Virus record (IMG/VR): IMGVR_UViG_3300020183_000013
Coordinates: 1 to 64,000 of that record
Length of the DNA: 64,000 nt
Reading direction: 5' to 3' (one strand)
Source: a virus
Of the stretch, positions 7,160 to 47,459 are shown in pieces. Each line of letters opens with the position of its first letter. The stretch's first letter is position 1. The notes beneath the pieces were generated by a model that saw only the letters and a program-made list of their open reading frames with translations, made no database searches and was not told the origin of the DNA. Made by a program: the position numbers and the translations under genes.

Positions 7160-7166
7160 GTTTTTT

Positions 7167-7239
7167 GCCCGTGTAGTCCAGCGGCAGAGACAGGGAGCTT
7201 AAAACTCCTCCAGGGGCGGTTCGAATCCGCCCACGGGTA
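7167..7239 (+). tRNA. tRNA-Leu (anticodon UAA), class-I shape
   Basis: A 73 nt cloverleaf. Acceptor stem 7167-7173 pairs with 7232-7238. The D arm has GG in its loop. Anticodon stem GGGAG/CTCCT holds a 7-nt loop CTTAAAA, placing TAA at 7200-7202. T stem GGCGG/CCGCC encloses TTCGAAT. The discriminator is A; CCA is not encoded. The variable loop is only 5 nt (7210-7214), whereas leucine tRNAs normally have a long variable arm. The anticodon would decode UUA. Confidence 0.85.
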
Positions 7240-7252
7240 TGAGGTTCTACCT

Positions 7253-7554: not shown

Positions 7555-7627
7555 GCCTCTAAAGCATTAAGTGGCGATGTACCGCTCTTGTAAAGCGGAG
7601 AGGACGGTTCAATTCCGTCTGGGGGCT
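7555..7627 (+). tRNA. tRNA-Thr (anticodon UGU)
   Basis: A 73 nt cloverleaf. Acceptor GCCTCTA pairs with TGGGGGC (with G-U pairs). D stem GCAT/ATGT. Anticodon stem CCGCT/AGCGG has loop CTTGTAA, so the anticodon is TGT. T stem GACGG/CCGTC has loop TTCAATT. CCA is not encoded. It would decode ACA, a common codon in this AT-rich genome. Confidence 0.9.
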
Positions 7628-16993: not shown

Positions 16994-19060
16994 ATGGCAG
17001 TTAATAAGAATTTTGTCATTAAGCACGGTGTTGAAGTTTCTGATAATCTAATCTATGCCAATCCTGACGTTGATAGAGTTGGTATTGGAACCACTGTTTT
17101 AAATTACACTCTAGAAGTTAATGGTGGTATTGGTGCCACTAACTTAAATGTAAGTGGAATTGCAACAATTACAACATTAGTTGCAACTGCTTTAACAGTA
17201 TCAAGTTTGAATATTGGAGCAATTTCAAATCCAACCGTAGCATTTTCTACAGTCACTGCTACAAATGCAATTCCAACAAATCTAGATTTAACTAGTTCTA
17301 CAATTAGTATCGGTGGGACTGTAGGTTCTAATGGTCAGTATTTAATTTCAACTGGTTCTGGTGTTAACTGGATCTCAACTCCAACTGCAAGAACCTCTAC
17401 AACAATTATTGCAGCTCCAGCACAAACAAGCATTTCATATACTTACACAGTTGGACTAGTAGATGTTTATATCAATGGTGTTAAGTTAGCACCAACAGAA
17501 TTCACTGCAAACGATGGTGTATCAATTACGCTCAATCAAGCGTGTTTCGGTGGTGAATCTATTGAGGTTATTGCTTATGCAGTTTCTTCTCTTGGAGCTG
17601 GTACAAGTGGTATTCAAGGTATTACAATTCAAAATCAAGGTATCACAACTGGAACTCCACTGAGTATTACGTCTCTTAACTTCGTTGGTGCCTCTGTAAC
17701 TGCGATCAATAGTGGAGTTGGTGTTACTGTCTATATCTCAGATAATAACAATACAACTTATTCATCAAGTGCTGGTATAGCAACAGTTGCTCAAGATCTT
17801 ACAGGAACTCCAAATATTACTGTTGGAACCATAGATGGTTCTAGTCTAAACATATCTGGTCTTTCAACTTTCGCTGGTATCACCACAGTCACTGGAACAA
17901 CATTATTCTCCAAGCAACTGAATATTTCTGGTATTGCTACCGTCAGACAACTTTCTGACTATAAGGCACTTGTAGGTGCTGCAAGTTCTACAACAGAGAC
18001 ATTTGTCGTCACCGTTGCTTCAAAAACAGCAAACCATCGTTACTTTGGAACTGGTTCTGCTAGTGGATACTATATTGATGATAAAGAGTCTCCATTTATT
18101 ACATTGTTACCTGGAAAAACATATCGTTTTGACCAGGCAAATGCATCTAACGCCACTCATCAACTTAGGTTTTATCTAGAGGCAGATAAAACAACACAAT
18201 ACACGACAAATGTAACTTTTAACGGAACCGCTGGAAGTGCTGGTGCTTATACAGAAATTATTGTTACTGACACAACACCGATTGTTTTACATTATCAGTG
18301 TGTCAATCACGGTTATATGGGTAATTCGGTTCAAACGAATTCAAACTTCATCAATACTCCATATAGTATCAACACTATTGGTGGACTTTCAGTTTCTGGT
18401 GTCACAACCTCAGGCACACTCAATATTGGAACTGGTGGAACAGTTATTACCACAACTAGTGCTGGATTGGTTGGAATAGGAACCACAAACCCTGGTGAAA
18501 AATTGCAAGTTGATGGAAATATTAGAGTTGGTATTTCAACAACTTCAAATTATATTACATTCTATGGAACTTACAAAGACGGTCCATTAAATGTTGGTAC
18601 AGAACTTCCATATCAACACACTTATATTGGTGAAAGAATTTATGATTATTCTGGACCTGAAGCAGAAAGATCTGAACTATTACTATTCAAAGGAAACGAT
18701 ACTGCGGGAGTAGCAGGTCCAGATAGAATAAGATTATTTGCAGGAGAACATAGATTTGATGTTCTAGGTTTTAACACTACAGGTACTTTTGAGCAAGTTG
18801 GAGTATCAACTGCAGCAGTTAATAAATTAACGATTACTTCTACTGGTGTTGGTATTGGAACTACCAATGCAACGAGTGCCCTTACAGTAAAAGGAAATAC
18901 GTCTCTTGAAACGTTAAATGTTTCTGGTATTTCTACTTTTAGTGGAAATGTAAGAGTTGGCGTAGATACTTCATCTGGTGTCATTCTTACATCACCAAAT
19001 GGAACACAGTATCGTCTTATTGTTGATGACTCTGGTACTCTCAGCACTGTTGCTGTTTAA
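16994..19060 (+). CDS. Tail fibre protein with cupredoxin-like domain
   Basis: A 688-residue protein. The N-terminal ~120 residues are VGIGTT and LEVNGGIGA fibre repeats. Residues ~135-200 are a small beta-sandwich (YTVGLVDVYINGVKLAP) also found at 29987 and 43902. Residues ~325-455 are a cupredoxin-like domain: TANHRYFGTGSASGYYID, LLPGKTYRFDQ, H389 in THQLRF, and YQCVNHGYMGN with C436, H439 and M442. H, C, H and M are the four type-1 copper ligands. The remainder contains more fibre repeats (VGIGTTNP) and a C-terminal LTSPNGTQYRLIVDDSG segment with no S74 motif. It probably forms a distal or side fibre; copper binding is inferred. Confidence 0.65.
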   Translation: MAVNKNFVIKHGVEVSDNLIYANPDVDRVGIGTTVLNYTLEVNGGIGATNLNVSGIATITTLVATALTVSSLNIGAISNPTVAFSTVTATNAIPTNLDLTSSTISIGGTVGSNGQYLISTGSGVNWISTPTARTSTTIIAAPAQTSISYTYTVGLVDVYINGVKLAPTEFTANDGVSITLNQACFGGESIEVIAYAVSSLGAGTSGIQGITIQNQGITTGTPLSITSLNFVGASVTAINSGVGVTVYISDNNNTTYSSSAGIATVAQDLTGTPNITVGTIDGSSLNISGLSTFAGITTVTGTTLFSKQLNISGIATVRQLSDYKALVGAASSTTETFVVTVASKTANHRYFGTGSASGYYIDDKESPFITLLPGKTYRFDQANASNATHQLRFYLEADKTTQYTTNVTFNGTAGSAGAYTEIIVTDTTPIVLHYQCVNHGYMGNSVQTNSNFINTPYSINTIGGLSVSGVTTSGTLNIGTGGTVITTTSAGLVGIGTTNPGEKLQVDGNIRVGISTTSNYITFYGTYKDGPLNVGTELPYQHTYIGERIYDYSGPEAERSELLLFKGNDTAGVAGPDRIRLFAGEHRFDVLGFNTTGTFEQVGVSTAAVNKLTITSTGVGIGTTNATSALTVKGNTSLETLNVSGISTFSGNVRVGVDTSSGVILTSPNGTQYRLIVDDSGTLSTVAV

Positions 19061-19085: not shown

Positions 19086-20660
19086 ATGAGTATCAGAAAT
19101 AGAGAACTATCACAATTTGGTTCTTTTATACACATTGATGATGATTCTCAGAGTATTGGAATTACTACTGAGGCCACTCCAAATGTTGGAATAGGAACAA
19201 CAGTTGCTACTCATAAGTTTACGGTAGTTGGTGAAACAAACTTCAATGGAAATGTTGGAGTAACAGGTATCATTACTGCAACCAATTTCTACGGAAATGG
19301 AGCAACATTAAGTGGTATTGTAGGAATTGCAACAGATGGTTGGGTTGTTAATGGTGCTGGAATCACCACAACTAGAAACGTTGGAATTGGAACTACAAAT
19401 GCAACGAGTGCATTAACAGTCACTGGAAATGGTTCATTTAGTGGTATCATCACAGCATCTAGATTTGTATCAACTGTATCTTCTGGAACTGCTCCACTTA
19501 CAGTATCATCAACAACTCTTGTCAATAATCTAAACGCAGATTTATTCCAAGGAAGAACTCCTCCTTCTGGCGGATTAGTTGGCGATACTGACTCCCAGAC
19601 TCTTACCAATAAGATATTTACTTCACCAAGAATTAATGGTATTGGCGCAAGTTTTGTAGGTTCATCATCTGGAAATACTATTCTTACAGCATCAGCAACA
19701 GCATCAGGTACACTCACTCTTCCTGCAGAAACAGGAACTCTTATCAGTACAGGAAGTGTGGGAGTTGTTACTGCTGGTTTGATTGCTGATGGAGCGATTA
19801 CAAATATTGATATTGCCGCCGCCGCTGGAATTACTTATGGTAAGTTAAGTTTAACAAATTCAATTGTTAATGCTGATATTGCAACTGGTGCAGCAATAAC
19901 TTATGGAAAATTAAGTCTTTCCAATTCACTTGTCAATGCTGATATTGCAACTGGTGCTGCAATTGACATTACAAAACTTTCAGCATCTACAATTTCAGGT
20001 ATTTCTCTGGGAAGTAATCTGAATACATTGACTTTTGGTACTTATTTAACTGGAACTTCATATAATGGCTCAGCGGCAGTTACAATTGCAACAAATGCTA
20101 CTAGCGCAAATACTGCATCAACTTTAGTTGCTCGTGATGCAAGTGGAAACTTTAGTGCTGGTACAATCACTGCAACTCTAACTGGCAATGCTTCCTCTGC
20201 AACTTCAGCATCATCAGCAGACCAAATCAAAACAACTACAAGATCAACTGCGGCTACTCATTACCTAACATTTGTCGATTCTGATAATGGAAGTGCAACG
20301 GCAGAAACACTTTACACTGATGCTGGAATTACGTACAATCCTTCAACAAATGACCTAACTGCATCAGGAAACGTTACAGCATATTCTGATGTTTCTTTAA
20401 AAGAAAACATTGAGACTATTTCAAATGCTCTTGAAATGGTGAATTCACTTCGTGGTGTTAGATTCAATCGTAAGGACTTGGAAGGAAATCCACTGCAAAT
20501 TGGTGTGGTTGCACAAGAGGTTGAAAAGATTGTCCCTGAGGTTGTGAAGACTGCAGATGATGGATTAAAATCCGTTGCATATGGTAACCTGATTGGAGTT
20601 CTGATTGAGGCAATTAAAGAACTCTCAGATAAGGTTGATAAATTGAGTGAAAATAGATAA
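19086..20660 (+). CDS. Tail fibre protein with C-terminal S74 intramolecular chaperone
   Basis: A 524-residue protein. The bulk is VGIGTT / ALTVTGNGSFSG fibre repeats, then a repeat with ITYGKLSLTNS and ITYGKLSLSNS. The last ~93 residues are a peptidase S74 chaperone: S434 DVSLK439 ENI, FNRKDLEGNPLQIGVVAQEV, then a C-terminal helix rich in Lys and Glu. In this family the domain trimerises the fibre and cuts itself off using a Ser-Lys dyad. A Shine-Dalgarno (AAGGAG) precedes the ATG. Confidence 0.8.
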   Translation: MSIRNRELSQFGSFIHIDDDSQSIGITTEATPNVGIGTTVATHKFTVVGETNFNGNVGVTGIITATNFYGNGATLSGIVGIATDGWVVNGAGITTTRNVGIGTTNATSALTVTGNGSFSGIITASRFVSTVSSGTAPLTVSSTTLVNNLNADLFQGRTPPSGGLVGDTDSQTLTNKIFTSPRINGIGASFVGSSSGNTILTASATASGTLTLPAETGTLISTGSVGVVTAGLIADGAITNIDIAAAAGITYGKLSLTNSIVNADIATGAAITYGKLSLSNSLVNADIATGAAIDITKLSASTISGISLGSNLNTLTFGTYLTGTSYNGSAAVTIATNATSANTASTLVARDASGNFSAGTITATLTGNASSATSASSADQIKTTTRSTAATHYLTFVDSDNGSATAETLYTDAGITYNPSTNDLTASGNVTAYSDVSLKENIETISNALEMVNSLRGVRFNRKDLEGNPLQIGVVAQEVEKIVPEVVKTADDGLKSVAYGNLIGVLIEAIKELSDKVDKLSENR

Positions 20661-26812: not shown

Positions 26813-28153
26813 GTGTCTAAATTACGTCTTAACGGTACTTCAAGTGGATATGTAGAAATCCAAGCAGCGGCAACGGCGGCAAATAATACAATCACTTTAC
26901 CATCAACAACTGGAAGTATTATTGTTCAGAGCACTACTGGTATTACAAGTTTTGCAAATGCTCCTGTAGTGATTGGTTCAGGTACTTCTACTGGTACTGC
27001 AAATCAGACATTACAGGTGACTGGTGGTGCTTATGTTAGTGGAAATCTTGGTGTAGGTCTTACAAATCCAGATTCCGAATTTAAATTAGATGTTGCCGGA
27101 AAAGCAAGATTTACTGATTATGGAAGTAATAGTGTTATTGAACTTGGAAGAGGTCAAACAACAAATGCATATGCATATATTGATTTTGTAGGAGATACTA
27201 CATATACAGATTATGGTTTAAGAATTATTAGAGATAACACTGGGGCAAATGCATTATCTAGATTAGCACATAGAGGAACTGGGGAACTTAGTTTACTTAC
27301 ATCAGAAGCAGCACCTATTACTTTTTATACTTCAAATTCTGAAAGAGCACGTATAGATGTAAGTGGTAACTTCGGTATTGGTGGTGCATCAGCAGGGCAA
27401 AAGTTTTTTGTCTATCAAACAAGCAATTCTAGAACGGCGGCTTTCCACGCAGATAGTGCCTCTTATCCAGAACTAATTGTTTTTTCACAAGCAAACAGAA
27501 GTGCATCTACTGCTTTCCATTATTTCTTCGCATTTAATGCAAGTACAGCAGATACTGAATTTAGAGTTGATGGTGCTGGAACTGTCTTTGGTGATAACAA
27601 CTATGTTACTGGTGCTGACTATGCTGAAATGTTCGAATGGGCAGATGGCAACCCTAATAATGAAGATAGGGTAGGTTATACTGTATCTCTCGTAGGAAAT
27701 AAGATTAAGATTGCTGAAGAAGGCGAAAATATTATTGGTGTAGTTTCTGGCAATCCTTCTGTTCTTGGTGATACTGCCTGGAACAAATGGTCACAAAAGT
27801 ATCTAAGGGATGATTTTAATCGGTATATTTACGAAGAACATAATGTCATAGAGTGGACTAATGAAGATGGTAAAGAACATTCTTATGAGGACTGGAACTT
27901 ACCTAATGATATTGTAGTTCCAGAAAATGCTTTAATAAAGACTCACGATGATAATGGTGTTCGTTTTACTCATCGAAAGTTAAATCCAGAATACAATCCA
28001 GACCAAGAATATATTTCAAGAGAGCAAAGACCTGAATGGGATGCTGTTGGTATGATGGGCAAACTTAGAGTTCGTAAAGGTCAACTTATAAAGTCAACTT
28101 GGGTTAAGATGCAGGATATTAGTGCAACTGTTGAAGAATGGTTGGTCAGATAA
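26813..28153 (+). CDS. Tail fibre protein with C-terminal G2-type self-cleaving domain, copy 1
   Basis: A 446-residue protein with GTG start. The N-terminus has LTLPS-like and LQVTGGAYVSGNLGVGLTNP repeats. Residues ~266-446 (ADYAEMFEWADGNPNNEDRV, GYTVSLVGNKIKIAEEGENI, IGVVSGNPSVLGDTAWNKW, WDAVGMMGKLRVRKGQ) have the pattern of the Peptidase_G2 chaperone domain of phi29-type appendages, which trimerises and releases itself by autocleavage. The next gene ends with a close copy. A distinct middle (residues ~100-260) probably carries host specificity. Confidence 0.75.
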   Translation: MSKLRLNGTSSGYVEIQAAATAANNTITLPSTTGSIIVQSTTGITSFANAPVVIGSGTSTGTANQTLQVTGGAYVSGNLGVGLTNPDSEFKLDVAGKARFTDYGSNSVIELGRGQTTNAYAYIDFVGDTTYTDYGLRIIRDNTGANALSRLAHRGTGELSLLTSEAAPITFYTSNSERARIDVSGNFGIGGASAGQKFFVYQTSNSRTAAFHADSASYPELIVFSQANRSASTAFHYFFAFNASTADTEFRVDGAGTVFGDNNYVTGADYAEMFEWADGNPNNEDRVGYTVSLVGNKIKIAEEGENIIGVVSGNPSVLGDTAWNKWSQKYLRDDFNRYIYEEHNVIEWTNEDGKEHSYEDWNLPNDIVVPENALIKTHDDNGVRFTHRKLNPEYNPDQEYISREQRPEWDAVGMMGKLRVRKGQLIKSTWVKMQDISATVEEWLVR

Positions 28154-28177: not shown

Positions 28178-29965
28178 GTGAGTACTTTAAAGACAATTAA
28201 ACTTCAAAATCCATCAGGTACAAGTTCTAACATTGATTTAGGAACTGGTGGAGAAGTTCTGATTGGAAGTGCATCAACCACAGGAACCGCAAGTCAGACA
28301 TTACAAGTGACTGGTGGTGCTTATGTGAGTGGTAGTATTGGTATAGGAACCACAAATCCAGCATATACACTTGATGTATTTGGAGTTTTTCGTACAGGAG
28401 GACTTGCTGGAGATGCATACCTTGCACTTTATGCAGACAATTCTGGTAATACTTTTTCAATTGAATCTGCAAATAAAGCAAATACTGTTAAAAAAGATAT
28501 AACATTAAATGCTTATGGTGGTAATACTCTTGTAGGTACATCAGCAGCAACAGGAACTTCCAATCAAAAACTTCAAGTAGGTGGTGGTGCTTATGTGAGT
28601 GGTAGTTTGGGTGTTGGAGTTACTAATCCTTCATATAAAACTCATATTGTTAGTTCTGGAGATATTCTTGCCCTTGAATCTACTACAAATACTGACCGAA
28701 CAACTTTAAAATTCCTAACAAATGGAAGTGATTGGGAAGTTGGTGCAAGAGGTTCGGCAGAAACTATTTCACCTAATAGTTTTTATCTTTTTGATAATGG
28801 AACGAATTATTTCAGGATGGTTCTTAATTCTTCAGGTAATATTGGTATTGGTTCAATTTCATCCGTAAATATAAAGGGAGGTCTAAATTTAGATAAATCT
28901 TCAAGTGCAGGAACAGTCGCAGCAGTACCAAGTATTGTTTTTTCGAATAGAAATCAAACAGATGCTATTTTTGTACATTCGGGAATATTTGCAGATTGTT
29001 ATAGAGACGTTGCAAATCCTTCTTATGCTGCCGGTATTTGGTTCCAAAGAGTTCCTGAGATTAACAATCTTAGTAGTGGGGCAAATATAATTTTTGGTGC
29101 CACTTTTAATTCAAATGAAAACTCCTTGCCAACAGAGAAAGCAAGAATTACATATGGTGGATATTTCAAAGCATCAAATATTGGAGGTTATCAAGATACA
29201 GCAGGTGCTTTTCATGAGTTTTATCAAACTCAAAACGATAACACGATGTGGTTAAGGTCTACAAATGCAAGTCTTGCCACAAGAGTTATAGCAGCAAATG
29301 TAGACCGTGCTGCAAATATTGCATATTCGTTTTTTGTTGGTTGGTCGGGAAATCTTGGAGACGTGGAGTTCAACCTTCGTGGTGATGGTCAAGCATATGC
29401 AGACGGCTCTTGGAACGGCGGTGGCGCTGACTATGCAGAAATGTTCGAATGGGCAGATGGAAACGCCAACAATGAGGACCGTGTAGGTTATACAGTATCC
29501 TTAGTTGGAAATAAGATTAAGATTGCTGAAGAAGGTGAAGATATCATCGGAGTAATCTCAGGTAATCCATCAGTCGTTGGTGATACTTCTTGGAATAAGT
29601 GGGCAGAGAAATACTTAAAAGATTCATTCAATCGTTATATCTTCGAAGAACATAATGTTGTAGAGTGGACTGATGAAGATGGTAAAGAGCATTCTTATGA
29701 GGACTGGAACTTACCAGAAGACATTACAGTTCCTACTGAGACAACAATTAAAACTCACGATGACAAAGGTAATCGTTTCACTCATCGTAAGTTAAATCCA
29801 GAATACGATCCGGACCAAGAATATGTTTCAAGAGAAGATAGGCAAGAATGGGATGCTGTAGGTCTTGTTGGAAAACTTAGAGTTCGTAAAGGTCAAGTCA
29901 TCGGAAATCGTTGGATTAAGATGCAAGACATTGATGAAAATGTAGAGGAGTGGTTAGTCAGATAA
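28178..29965 (+). CDS. Tail fibre protein with C-terminal G2-type self-cleaving domain, copy 2
   Basis: A 595-residue protein with GTG start. It has two LQVTGGAYVSG / LQVGGGAYVSG repeat units, then a long unique middle (residues ~150-410). The last ~180 residues nearly repeat the G2-like domain of the 26813 gene (ADYAEMFEWADGNANNEDRV, WNLPEDITVPTETT, WDAVGLVGKLRVRKGQ). Conserved ends with different middles suggest alternative tips on the same scaffold. The 45 bp at 28310-28354 recur exactly at 36854. Confidence 0.75.
   Translation: MSTLKTIKLQNPSGTSSNIDLGTGGEVLIGSASTTGTASQTLQVTGGAYVSGSIGIGTTNPAYTLDVFGVFRTGGLAGDAYLALYADNSGNTFSIESANKANTVKKDITLNAYGGNTLVGTSAATGTSNQKLQVGGGAYVSGSLGVGVTNPSYKTHIVSSGDILALESTTNTDRTTLKFLTNGSDWEVGARGSAETISPNSFYLFDNGTNYFRMVLNSSGNIGIGSISSVNIKGGLNLDKSSSAGTVAAVPSIVFSNRNQTDAIFVHSGIFADCYRDVANPSYAAGIWFQRVPEINNLSSGANIIFGATFNSNENSLPTEKARITYGGYFKASNIGGYQDTAGAFHEFYQTQNDNTMWLRSTNASLATRVIAANVDRAANIAYSFFVGWSGNLGDVEFNLRGDGQAYADGSWNGGGADYAEMFEWADGNANNEDRVGYTVSLVGNKIKIAEEGEDIIGVISGNPSVVGDTSWNKWAEKYLKDSFNRYIFEEHNVVEWTDEDGKEHSYEDWNLPEDITVPTETTIKTHDDKGNRFTHRKLNPEYDPDQEYVSREDRQEWDAVGLVGKLRVRKGQVIGNRWIKMQDIDENVEEWLVR
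28310..28354 (+). repeat. 45-bp exact repeat, copy A (pairs with 36854-36898)
   Basis: Encodes the TGGAYVSGSIGIGTT fibre motif. Identical at 36854; the copy at 46599 differs at one base over the same length. Confidence 0.9.
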
Positions 29966-43901: not shown

Positions 43902-46900
43902 ATGTCTGATCCAAAAGTACGGTTTAAAAGGTCATCTGTACCTGGCAAAATTCCCAATGAGACGCAAGTTCCTCTTGGGGAAATAGCTTTAAACACATAT
44001 GACGGAAAGGTATTTGCCTCTAAAAACGTTGGTATAGGAACTACAGTTTTTACCGTTAACCCTTGGAACGTAGGGACGGGAACGGATTCTTATGATATTA
44101 ACTTTACTGCTGGAAATGTAGGTGTTGGTTCCACAATTCCAACATCAAAACTTTCTGTTGTCGGTGATGGACATTTTAGTGGAGTTGTAACTGCATCTAG
44201 TTTTAATGGATATCAAACACTTTTAGGAACGGCAAGTTCTGCTACAAAAACTTTTACGGTCACAGTCGCAAATAAAACAGCGAATCATCGTTACTTTGGA
44301 TCTGGATCTTCTCAAGGATACTTTATTGACGGGGCAGAATCTCCCTTTATAACATTACTTCCAGGAAAAACCTATCGCTTTGATCAAGCAGACGGTAGTA
44401 ATAGTTCTCATCCACTTCGTTTTTACCTGGAAGCAAATAGAACAACTCAATACACTACTAATGTAACAACAAACGGAACTGCTGGTAGTGCTGGTGCATA
44501 TACTGAAATCACTATTGTAGATACCACACCGATTGTTCTACATTATCAGTGCTCTAATCATGCTGGTATGGGTAATGCAGTATCCAACGCTGCTAATTTT
44601 ATTGACACTCCCTACCAAATCACTGCTCGTAGTGGAATTAATGCAACAGGTGTTGTTACTGCAACTACATTTGTTGGTGCTCTCACTGGTAACGTTACAG
44701 GAACTGCAACCACTGCGACTAATCTTGCAGATGCTGCAAATATCACTACAGGGACCATTAATTCTGCAAGATTATCTGGAACTTATGATATTAATGTAAG
44801 TTTTGCATCAACTGCTGGTATTGCAACTGTTGCACAAGGATTAACAGGAACACCTAATATAGTTGTTGGTGTTGTCACGGCTACTTCTTTTGTTAAATCT
44901 GGTGGAACTTCAAGTCAGTTTTTAAAGGCTGATGGTTCAGTTGATACAAGCACATATTTAACATCATATTCAGAAACTGATACTTTAAACTCAGTAACAG
45001 GTAGAGGCAATAGCACCACAAATGGTATTTCTGTTGGTGTGCTCACTGCAACATCAGGTAATTTTAGTGGCATTATCACTTCATCTGGTGCTAATGTTTC
45101 TGGTGTCGTCACAGCATCTTCATTCTCTGGATCTGGTTCCCAATTAACAGGCATTGTAACTTCATTAACTGCCGGAACTGGTATTTCAATCAACCAATCT
45201 ACAGGTAATGTAACCATCACTGCAACTGGTGGTGGTGGAAGTGGTGAAGGATTTTTTGTACAAAATTCTGCTGGTATTCATACACTCTCTAATGTTGGCA
45301 TTGGAACTACAAATCCAACATCAAAACTAGATGTTACTGGTAACGTAAAAGTTTCTGGTATTGTCACGGCAACCTCATTCTCTGGTTCTGGGACTAATCT
45401 GACAGGTATTGTTACTTCCATTACTGCTGGTTCTGGTATTTCAATTGACCAATCCACAGGTAATGTAACAATTATATCAACGGGTGGTGCAGGTGCTGGA
45501 GTTTCTGCTCTAACATCAGCGGATAATTATATTATTACTCTGACTCCATCATTTAATGGAATTACAACTGCATTTACGATGCAGTACAATGGTAATAATT
45601 ACTTCCCACTGAATGAACAACAACTTTTAGTTTCTCTTGGTGGTGTTATTCAAGAACCCACAACTGCATATACAGTTAGTTCTTCAACGATTAGATTTGC
45701 AAGTGCTCCAAATACTGAAACTGATTACTTCATTACAGCACTGAATACTGCTCCACTATCGAGAAATGCACAATCTTATAATGTCACTGGAGTTCAAACA
45801 AACTTTACATTAACCAATGGATATACAATTGGATATGTTGATGTTTATTTAAATGGTGCTCGTCTAGTTTCTGGTGATGACTATACTGCAACTAACGGTA
45901 CAACAGTTGGTCTTACAAGTGCTGCACAAAATGGAGATGTTGTAGAAGTTGTTGGATATAAGGCTGTTAGTCTATCTACAGATGACTTGGTAATTAATGG
46001 AAATCTAAAAGTCACTGGTATTACCACTCTTGGGAATTATGTTCAGGTTGGAGTTGGCTCTACTGCTCTTATTGTTAATGGTGACGCAAGAGTTACTGGT
46101 ATTCTAACTGTTGGTTCTTCATCAGTTACGATTGATGGTATCAACAATAAAATTAATGTTGGCACTGGACTTACCATAACTAATGGTATTGTTGCAACTG
46201 GTGTTATCACTGCAACAAGTTTTGTTGGTGATGGCTCTGGATTAACTGGAGCAGGTTCTACAGTTGTTGATGACACAAGCACTAATCAAACTTTGTATCC
46301 AGTATTAACTGCACAAACTTCAGGAACAATTACAGCATCGAAAGTTTCGACTACTAAGTTATCGTTCAATCCTTCTACTGGTGTTATATCTGCAACAACA
46401 TTTAATGGAAATATTACTGGTACTGCAGCAACATTTACTGGAAATGTTTCTATTGCAGGAACCTTAACTTATGAAGACGTAACCAATGTTGATTCTATTG
46501 GTATTGTAACAGCTCGTTCTGGTGTTCAAGTTACTGGTGGCAATCTCTTAGTCGGTTCTACAAGTGCTACAGGAACAGCATCACAACCACTTCAAGTCAC
46601 TGGTGGTGCTTATGTGAGTGGTAGTATTGGTGTAGGAACCACAAATCCAACAGCAAAATTAGATGTATCAGGTTCCATAAGAGCATCATCACAATTAATT
46701 TCTACAGTAGCAACAGGAACTGCACCACTTACAGTTTCTTCAACGACTGTAGTAAGCAACTTAAATGCTGACTTGCTTGATGGGTATAATGTGGGAACAT
46801 CAGGCGCAACTATTCCTCTTATGAATGGTTCTAATACTTGGAGTGCTGCTCAAACTTTTACTGCAAATTTATCATTCAACACAACAGCAGCAGAAAGAGT

Positions 46901-47459
46901 TATAATTTTTAATAATGGAACAACTAATGTCTATTTTTATGGACAAACAGTTGCTGCTGGCGGAAATCAAGGTATGTATGATGGCACCAATGGGAGAGGT
47001 GTTTGGTATTATTCTCCTTCTGGAGCATCTTTTAATCCACAAATTGATACTAATGTTACTGGTGCAATTACAGCAACATCAAACATCACTGCATATTCAT
47101 CAGACCGTAGATTAAAAGAAAACTTCAAACATATTGAAACTCCATTAGATAAAATACAGAAACTGAATGGATATACTTTTGATTGGAATGAGAAATCAAA
47201 AGAACTAGGATTCACTCCAAAACACGAAACAAATGACATTGGTTTGATTGCACAAGAAGTTCAAGAAGTTCTTCCTCAAGCGGTAGCACCAGCACCATTT
47301 GACCAAGATTGGAATGGAGAACAAAATATATCAAAATCAGGAGAAAACTACCTTACTATTCAATATGAAAGATTAGTTCCACTTCTTGTCGAAGCAATCA
47401 AAGAGCAGCAAGAGCAAATAAATACACTTAAAGAAGAAATTAATAACTTGAAAAAATGA
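43902..47459 (+). CDS. Long tail fibre protein with cupredoxin-like domain and S74 chaperone
   Basis: A 1185-residue protein. The N-terminus VRFKRSSVPGKIPNETQVPL, GEIALNTYDGKVF is a fibre-base motif. Residues ~105-235 are cupredoxin-like: TANHRYFGSGSSQGYFIDG, LLPGKTYRFDQ, H170 (SSHPLRFYL), C217, H220, M223 (YQCSNHAGMGN). Many VGIGTTNPTSKLDVTG / GIVTATSFSGSG repeats follow, with two beta-sandwich units (LLVSLGGVIQEP; YTIGYVDVYLNGARLV). The C-terminal ~120 residues are an S74 domain: S1067 DRRLK1072 ENF, NDIGLIAQEVQEVLPQAV, then a coiled coil. It overlaps the next gene by ATGA. Probable full-length receptor-binding fibre. Confidence 0.75.
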   Translation: MSDPKVRFKRSSVPGKIPNETQVPLGEIALNTYDGKVFASKNVGIGTTVFTVNPWNVGTGTDSYDINFTAGNVGVGSTIPTSKLSVVGDGHFSGVVTASSFNGYQTLLGTASSATKTFTVTVANKTANHRYFGSGSSQGYFIDGAESPFITLLPGKTYRFDQADGSNSSHPLRFYLEANRTTQYTTNVTTNGTAGSAGAYTEITIVDTTPIVLHYQCSNHAGMGNAVSNAANFIDTPYQITARSGINATGVVTATTFVGALTGNVTGTATTATNLADAANITTGTINSARLSGTYDINVSFASTAGIATVAQGLTGTPNIVVGVVTATSFVKSGGTSSQFLKADGSVDTSTYLTSYSETDTLNSVTGRGNSTTNGISVGVLTATSGNFSGIITSSGANVSGVVTASSFSGSGSQLTGIVTSLTAGTGISINQSTGNVTITATGGGGSGEGFFVQNSAGIHTLSNVGIGTTNPTSKLDVTGNVKVSGIVTATSFSGSGTNLTGIVTSITAGSGISIDQSTGNVTIISTGGAGAGVSALTSADNYIITLTPSFNGITTAFTMQYNGNNYFPLNEQQLLVSLGGVIQEPTTAYTVSSSTIRFASAPNTETDYFITALNTAPLSRNAQSYNVTGVQTNFTLTNGYTIGYVDVYLNGARLVSGDDYTATNGTTVGLTSAAQNGDVVEVVGYKAVSLSTDDLVINGNLKVTGITTLGNYVQVGVGSTALIVNGDARVTGILTVGSSSVTIDGINNKINVGTGLTITNGIVATGVITATSFVGDGSGLTGAGSTVVDDTSTNQTLYPVLTAQTSGTITASKVSTTKLSFNPSTGVISATTFNGNITGTAATFTGNVSIAGTLTYEDVTNVDSIGIVTARSGVQVTGGNLLVGSTSATGTASQPLQVTGGAYVSGSIGVGTTNPTAKLDVSGSIRASSQLISTVATGTAPLTVSSTTVVSNLNADLLDGYNVGTSGATIPLMNGSNTWSAAQTFTANLSFNTTAAERVIIFNNGTTNVYFYGQTVAAGGNQGMYDGTNGRGVWYYSPSGASFNPQIDTNVTGAITATSNITAYSSDRRLKENFKHIETPLDKIQKLNGYTFDWNEKSKELGFTPKHETNDIGLIAQEVQEVLPQAVAPAPFDQDWNGEQNISKSGENYLTIQYERLVPLLVEAIKEQQEQINTLKEEINNLKK

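Follow-up and report, generated by a model that had tools for sequence, protein, structure and literature searches.

A predicted cupredoxin domain with a complete type-1 ligand set in phage tail-fibre proteins

Cupredoxins are familiar as electron carriers and as domains of enzymes, and in their common arrangement one ligand histidine lies before one strand, the cysteine ends another, and a histidine and a methionine follow in the loop before the last. The loop of amicyanin has the spacing C-x2-H-x2-M, which puts the ligand methionine at C+6, while the ligand methionine of pseudoazurin is at C+8. Plastocyanin, the petE product, carries photosynthetic electrons as a free protein in the infected cell. 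In published work, petE is listed for cyanophages as an auxiliary metabolic gene (PMC3037559), a viral NirK is described (PMC8115048), and a metal in phage tail fibres is discussed for T4 gp37, with iron, HxH motifs and a "Trojan Horse" hypothesis (PMC11705849). This iron was the nearest idea in print that we found: a search of the open-licence literature with the spelling "tail fiber" returned no report of a cupredoxin or copper-type domain in phage tails. The fold and the type of site considered here are already known, and what that literature did not yield is their placement in phage tail proteins. The domain resembles petE in being a phage-encoded cupredoxin and differs from it in being a putative virion domain rather than a free carrier (PMC3037559); with gp37 it shares a metal site, here a predicted one, in a phage tail fibre, and this site would be of the cupredoxin copper type and not an octahedral HxH iron site (PMC11705849).

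The stretch of DNA analysed, hereafter the window, comprises positions 1 to 64,000 of the IMG/VR virus record IMGVR_UViG_3300020183_000013, which has 137,575 bases in all. An ORF on the plus strand (16994..19060) encodes a 688-residue protein that matches the tail fiber family phrog_30742 (E 3.4e-75). Residues 325-455 of this product form a cupredoxin-like domain, copy 1, according to an AlphaFold2 model, structure matches in the PDB and the alignment of homologues. An earlier note, made from the letters alone, had put it at 17976-18345; the location was right, and the homologous domain is slightly wider, about 17966-18358 (plus strand). Translation of the ORF placed all four residues singled out in that note where it had them: the predicted first histidine ligand H389 (18158..18160), the predicted cysteine ligand C436 (18299..18301), the predicted second histidine ligand H439 (18308..18310) and the predicted axial methionine ligand M442 (18317..18319), all on the plus strand. 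The first histidine is thus followed, 47 residues on, by C-x2-H-x2-M.

Five C-x2-H-x2-M motifs occur in the six-frame translation of the window, and only two of them lie inside an open domain of this kind. The second belongs to copy 2 (44217..44609, plus strand), which is 75% identical to copy 1, has its ligand set intact (CSNHAGM) and occupies about residues 106-236 of a second fibre protein (43902..47459, plus strand, 1185 residues); neither copy is C-terminal in its protein. This second protein ends in a Peptidase_S74 chaperone domain (PF13884, E 5.9e-18). An S74 domain serves a trimeric fibre as its intramolecular chaperone, and three sites per fibre would therefore be expected for the product of 43902-47459. 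The fibre ORF next to that of copy 1 (19086..20660, plus strand) also has a Peptidase_S74 domain (PF13884, E 4.7e-15); domain-profile searches found no cupredoxin-like domain in it.

The AlphaFold2 model of the copy 1 domain was built from 49 sequences that are 47-91% identical to copy 1 and has a pLDDT of 92, a pTM of 0.86 and nine strands of at least three residues. Its best matches in the PDB are copper proteins of the cupredoxin fold, which bears out the fold that the earlier note had proposed for residues ~325-455. Foldseek gave three matches at E<=0.001, rusticyanin every one, and among the best 50 of its 1293 matches (E<=10) ranks 1-38 are all blue-copper or multicopper proteins: after rusticyanin come multicopper oxidases, Cu nitrite reductase, two-domain laccases, a Nitrosopumilus purple cupredoxin (TM 0.64 by target length) and pseudoazurin. 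The query-length TM-scores of ranks 1-38 against these solved structures are moderate (0.39-0.54). Three rows among the same best 50 are unrelated (one aspartic peptidase, two entries of the SrpA adhesin), and one further row is factor Va, whose A domains are cupredoxin-like. The best VIA match (Z 8.7, 100 residues, rmsd 2.9 A) is a Cu nitrite reductase over its residues 26-137, a Z barely above the value of 8 under which, by VIA's own remark, a match may reflect a common arrangement; all of its best 50 rows are nitrite reductases or two-domain/small laccases. In the model H65 (=H389) comes directly before strand 67-70, C112 (=C436) closes strand 107-112, and H115 (=H439) and M118 (=M442) lie in the loop ahead of the last strand, 120-124. 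The modelled strand order of copy 1 thus places the ligands as in cupredoxins, and the domain is, as predicted and with moderate scores, a member of the cupredoxin fold superfamily (Greek-key beta-sandwich, 7-8 strands). The domain model also has matches in BFVD (query-length TM 0.69-0.71) among predicted "beta-sandwich proteins" from Pithovirus- and Marseillevirus-like records.

A profile comparison gave the correspondence of the ligands themselves. When 66 homologues were aligned by hhalign with 12 pseudoazurin/amicyanin-type PF00127 proteins, the histidine, cysteine and second histidine fell on the cupredoxin ligands and M118 paired with the loop methionine at C+6; the pair has E 4.8e-4 with a probability of only 32%, and the reversed-profile control gave E 0.35. 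The 12 proteins are pseudoazurins, one amicyanin-type protein (CTPHPMM) and two others; of the 32 PF00127 loci from which they come (L177-L208), 16 lack the loop by regular expression and the rest are these 12 and four azurin-type proteins. C+6 is not the place of the pseudoazurins' ligand methionine but lies two residues earlier, which counts against the copper-site pairing of M118. A profile of the four azurins had no match to the domain profile in hhalign. In a tiled control covering 36 of the 74 window ORFs, on the plus strand and with two of the 191 tiles deliberately placed on the domain, the seven best tiles against the pseudoazurin/amicyanin-type profile all overlap copies 1 and 2; copy 2 stands out clearly (4.2e-4) and copy 1 narrowly (0.0053 vs 0.0090 for the best unrelated tile). 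The homologues rule out a chance motif, and so does this control, though for copy 1 only narrowly.

When PDB sequences were searched with a profile, the only match up to E 10 was a pseudoazurin (E 0.28), aligned on the C-x2-H loop. Searching PDB sequences directly with copy 1 gave three matches, none a cupredoxin, and no cupredoxin was found with the cellular protein L217; with the cellular relative L095, plastocyanins make up 8 of 13 PDB matches (best E 0.053). The earlier note had read the short C-x2-H-x2-M loop as a sign that the copper site could be unusual or absent. That reading does not hold, since the PF00127 protein L186 has CTPHPMM and amicyanin shares the spacing, which is hence a natural type-1 one. 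By sequence, copy 1 is predicted to have both the amicyanin-type loop and the pattern of a type-1 site, a histidine on one loop and Cys-His-Met/Gln between the last two strands. A disulphide in place of a metal is ruled out, the domain having a single cysteine. An Ig-like or carbohydrate-binding sandwich was also considered: weak Pfam matches to CBM_4_9 (best E 0.00038) and to an Ig family (best E 0.00089), each in 6 of the 49 members, are unsupported by the fold matches.

The four ligand positions are strongly conserved. In 66 unique homologues, obtained from 85 of 86 tblastn pieces, the first histidine, which hhalign puts on the cupredoxin ligand histidine, is kept in 66/66, the cysteine in 59/65 (serine in 6), the second histidine in 61/65 (aspartate in 4) and the methionine in 63/65 (isoleucine in 2). 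A wider set was drawn from 174 loci (145 from IMG/VR, 16 from cellular assemblies, 11 from phage records and two from the window's own record); five of its 156 unique rows, with fewer than 80 filled columns, were dropped and three of the remaining 151 are without the loop columns. H-C-H-M is kept in 142 of the 148 unique related sequences with all four columns filled, as against the lack of conservation that the earlier note had named as refuting; this sample leans towards ligand keepers, since the seed patterns included the loop in two of nine (viral scans) and the first histidine in one of two (genome scan). The other six have serine for cysteine plus a lost histidine (4) or methionine (2), and all six keep the first histidine. 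Modelled by themselves, these six gave a poor structure (pLDDT 56). A further histidine, H348 (18035..18037, plus strand), is invariant in the subfamily (65 of the 65 homologues having a letter there) and dispensable for the family, being absent from L095, L097, L166 and L168; many gammaproteobacterial relatives have HPFYG or similar at this place. Contigs binned as Euryarchaeota, Planctomycetaceae and Flavobacterium (L084, L086, L087, L089) encode relatives 51-63% identical, which are probably phage sequence inside those assemblies.

Compared with the type-1 cupredoxins of PF00127 (amicyanin, pseudoazurin, plastocyanin, rusticyanin), copy 1 shares the predicted fold, the histidine before a strand and Cys-His-Met on the last loop. 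It differs in that its sequence is too far for PF00127 and in being embedded in a fibre instead of forming a small secreted electron carrier; the phage domain also has Pro, Gln or Arg after the first histidine in 66/66 homologues. Neither the window domain nor the phage members tested score above the cut-off of any Pfam copper family. PF00127 (Copper-bind) does not list the window domain and is absent from the 18 families matched by 49 members. PF25489 (At5g54830-like), named from a plant protein, gave no match with the window domain and 13.1 bits for the phage member L036, against a cut-off of 27; 10 of 49 phage members match it weakly at E<=1 (best 0.0062), and of four longer gammaproteobacterial relatives tested, L211 and L223 exceed the cut-off (33.1 and 30.7 bits) and L217 (26.1) and L219 do not. 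The domain is a cupredoxin by its predicted fold and ligand set, and outside PF00127 and PF25489 by their cut-offs.

Cellular relatives were found in 23 of 274 genomes of one class, that of the genome of L097, titled Gammaproteobacteria. All 20 loci read have a frame with Y-x-C-x2-H-x2-M, by which motif the frames were chosen, and 17 of these frames are 457-546 residues long; shorter cadherin-like cellular proteins also carry the domain. These proteins (L211-L228 and the cadherin-like L095 and L097) have the same four ligands as the phage domain, with the motif around them, and differ from it in being cellular rather than phage structural proteins and, to judge from their sequences, probably secreted and lipoprotein-like. 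L211-L228 consist of the domain plus a further part. NCBIfam searches gave no lead, four of L211-L228 having no match below E 0.2, and a viral scan with the cellular domain L095 returned no relative.

The window domain belongs to a family of tail modules in marine phages. Among 50,697 phage records, tblastn found matches in 42 when copy 1 was the query (E<=1e-5) and in 262 when it was the S-TIM5 copy (1e-4), both counts including GenBank and RefSeq doubles. Most of the matched records belong to phages of Synechococcus and Prochlorococcus, and some to phages of Pelagibacter and Methylophilales; annotations of the proteins that carry the domain include tail fibres, a gp9 baseplate wedge-tail fibre connector (S-ShM2), the gp7 baseplate wedge initiator (P-HM2) and virion structural proteins. 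Sullivan 2010 reports 41 proteins in S-SM1 virions (PMC3037559). Five gene-cluster names were looked for and none occurs in the main text of that paper, so that virion presence of the domain rests on annotation.

The whole records of 20 phages (the window's own and 19 named phages, all picked as matching) were searched, giving 59 places and 61 aligned copies; 55 copies could be scored and six end before the loop, two of these being out-of-frame noise. The full set (His + C-x2-H-x2/3-[MQ]) is present in 36 of the 55, none of the ligands in 16, the first histidine only in 3, and the loop without the histidine in 0. Copies with the full set reach down to 21% identity with copy 1. They include natural variants: L264 (Cyanophage P-RSM6, 87718-88122) has C-x2-H-x2-Q, with glutamine in the axial place as in stellacyanin, and L258 and L271 have C-x2-H-x3-M, a loop one residue longer. 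Both an axial glutamine and a loop lengthened by one residue are kinds known in copper proteins. The Fisher p for joint presence of histidine and loop is 3e-11, which is overstated as the copies are related. On a tree from which the ligand columns had been left out, 5 changes suffice for the histidine and 6 for the loop, and the association is therefore suggestive, not significant: an independent-pairs test found two pairs on well supported branches (five on all), which puts 0.05 out of reach, and the loop follows the histidine in 1.8 of the 2 on average, the opposite never occurring. Since the six sequences without the cysteine keep the first histidine and 3 of 55 copies have this histidine only, loss is not strictly all-or-none.

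The record of the window has a copy without a site as well. This third, weak copy lies outside the window (G000:88661-88924, L267) in a 4102-residue frame, has none of the four ligands, and was found at E 0.0095 with profile A2 and not listed with profile A1; similar site-less copies stand in frames of 4070-5195 residues in Bellamy, P-TIM68 and P-SSM2. The 16 ligand-free copies keep F55 (16/16), D59 (14/16), S61 (13/16) and F69 (14/16), fold residues which therefore do not need the ligands. They are more diverged in the core (231/469 kept vs 863/1370 in full copies), and proline after the first histidine is found in 0/16 of them vs 30/36 full copies. In Synechococcus phage S-H35 (L231/L272) a site-bearing copy is followed by a DGYPIYGPYGY stretch, which resembles the YHYH domain motif, and then by a site-less copy.

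The ligand set, its conservation and its natural variants fit a type-1 copper site. With moderate confidence we favour a fibre domain of predicted cupredoxin fold and complete type-1 ligand set that would most likely hold one copper per chain as a metal-stabilised knob. Fold prediction, ligand correspondence, conservation and the joint presence or absence of the ligands are the computed part of this explanation, from which we infer metal binding, the identity of the metal, presence in the virion and a stabilising role. The domain, built into the tail fibre, would take up one copper ion per chain and, once loaded, would act as a compact and rigid knob on the fibre; holo-cupredoxins are more stable than apo forms, which makes this the simplest role. 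The domain is one of a large family of modules that marine phages have in fibres, a gp9 connector, gp7 wedge proteins and further structural proteins; some copies, perhaps in less exposed or differently stabilised places, no longer have the metal site and would be structural modules only.

The ligand-free copies in the same genomes, the one at G000:88661-88924 included, speak for a rival reading, in which the fold would be purely structural or receptor-binding, its four residues inherited from a copper protein and kept by packing or recent descent, with no metal in the virion. The persistence of several fold residues in such copies and the six related sequences that lost the cysteine plus a histidine or the methionine point the same way. 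We nevertheless regard this as unlikely: the full set survives down to 21% identity, in quite different proteins and in cellular secreted relatives, and packing alone would hardly account for a lone conserved cysteine that shares one loop with histidine and methionine. It seems very improbable that another metal such as zinc occupies the site within the virion, the methionine place and the C-x2-H-x2-M loop being typical of copper sites and the variants seen, glutamine and the longer loop, being known in copper proteins too, although bacterially expressed cupredoxins can carry zinc in the site and intracellular assembly leaves little free copper. As a further alternative, copper could act in infection, either as a lure for a receptor by which the host takes up copper or as the redox switch behind irreversible attachment; the site sits in fibres and baseplate parts, and iron in tail fibres has been proposed to work likewise (PMC11705849). 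The domains of the window, however, lie away from the C-terminal end, which is probably the usual host-facing one, and the domain also occurs in gp7 wedge proteins; we consider such an action very unlikely.

If the favoured copper-loaded knob is real, copper would join the metals of virions, with a marker for redox-active virus particles and a bearing on dissolved copper speciation at sea. A broader proposal, which we consider decidedly unlikely, is that the virions of many marine T4-like phages are copper-loaded, each with numerous type-1 copper sites in fibres and baseplate, that they use the copper in attachment or triggering, as a copper counterpart of the iron "Trojan Horse", and that they add to the ocean's copper-binding ligands. 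The family gives natural pairs of site-bearing and site-less copies within one genome, for asking what the metal does.

In the window, baseplate hub and tail lysozyme genes adjoin a long run of fibre genes; as these genes and the relatives of the phage point that way, the phage is probably T4-like. The glycine-rich region of a fibre-like ORF at 14597-16960 matches Pfam ALK_LTK_GRD (E 1.2e-14). Two ORFs, at 26813-28153 and 28178-29965, match the "pre-neck appendage protein" family phrog_4775, and the tblastn matches of the latter are mostly to Staphylococcus and Bacillus phages. The window also contains a tRNA-Leu (taa) at 7166-7240 and a tRNA-Thr (tgt) at 7555-7627.
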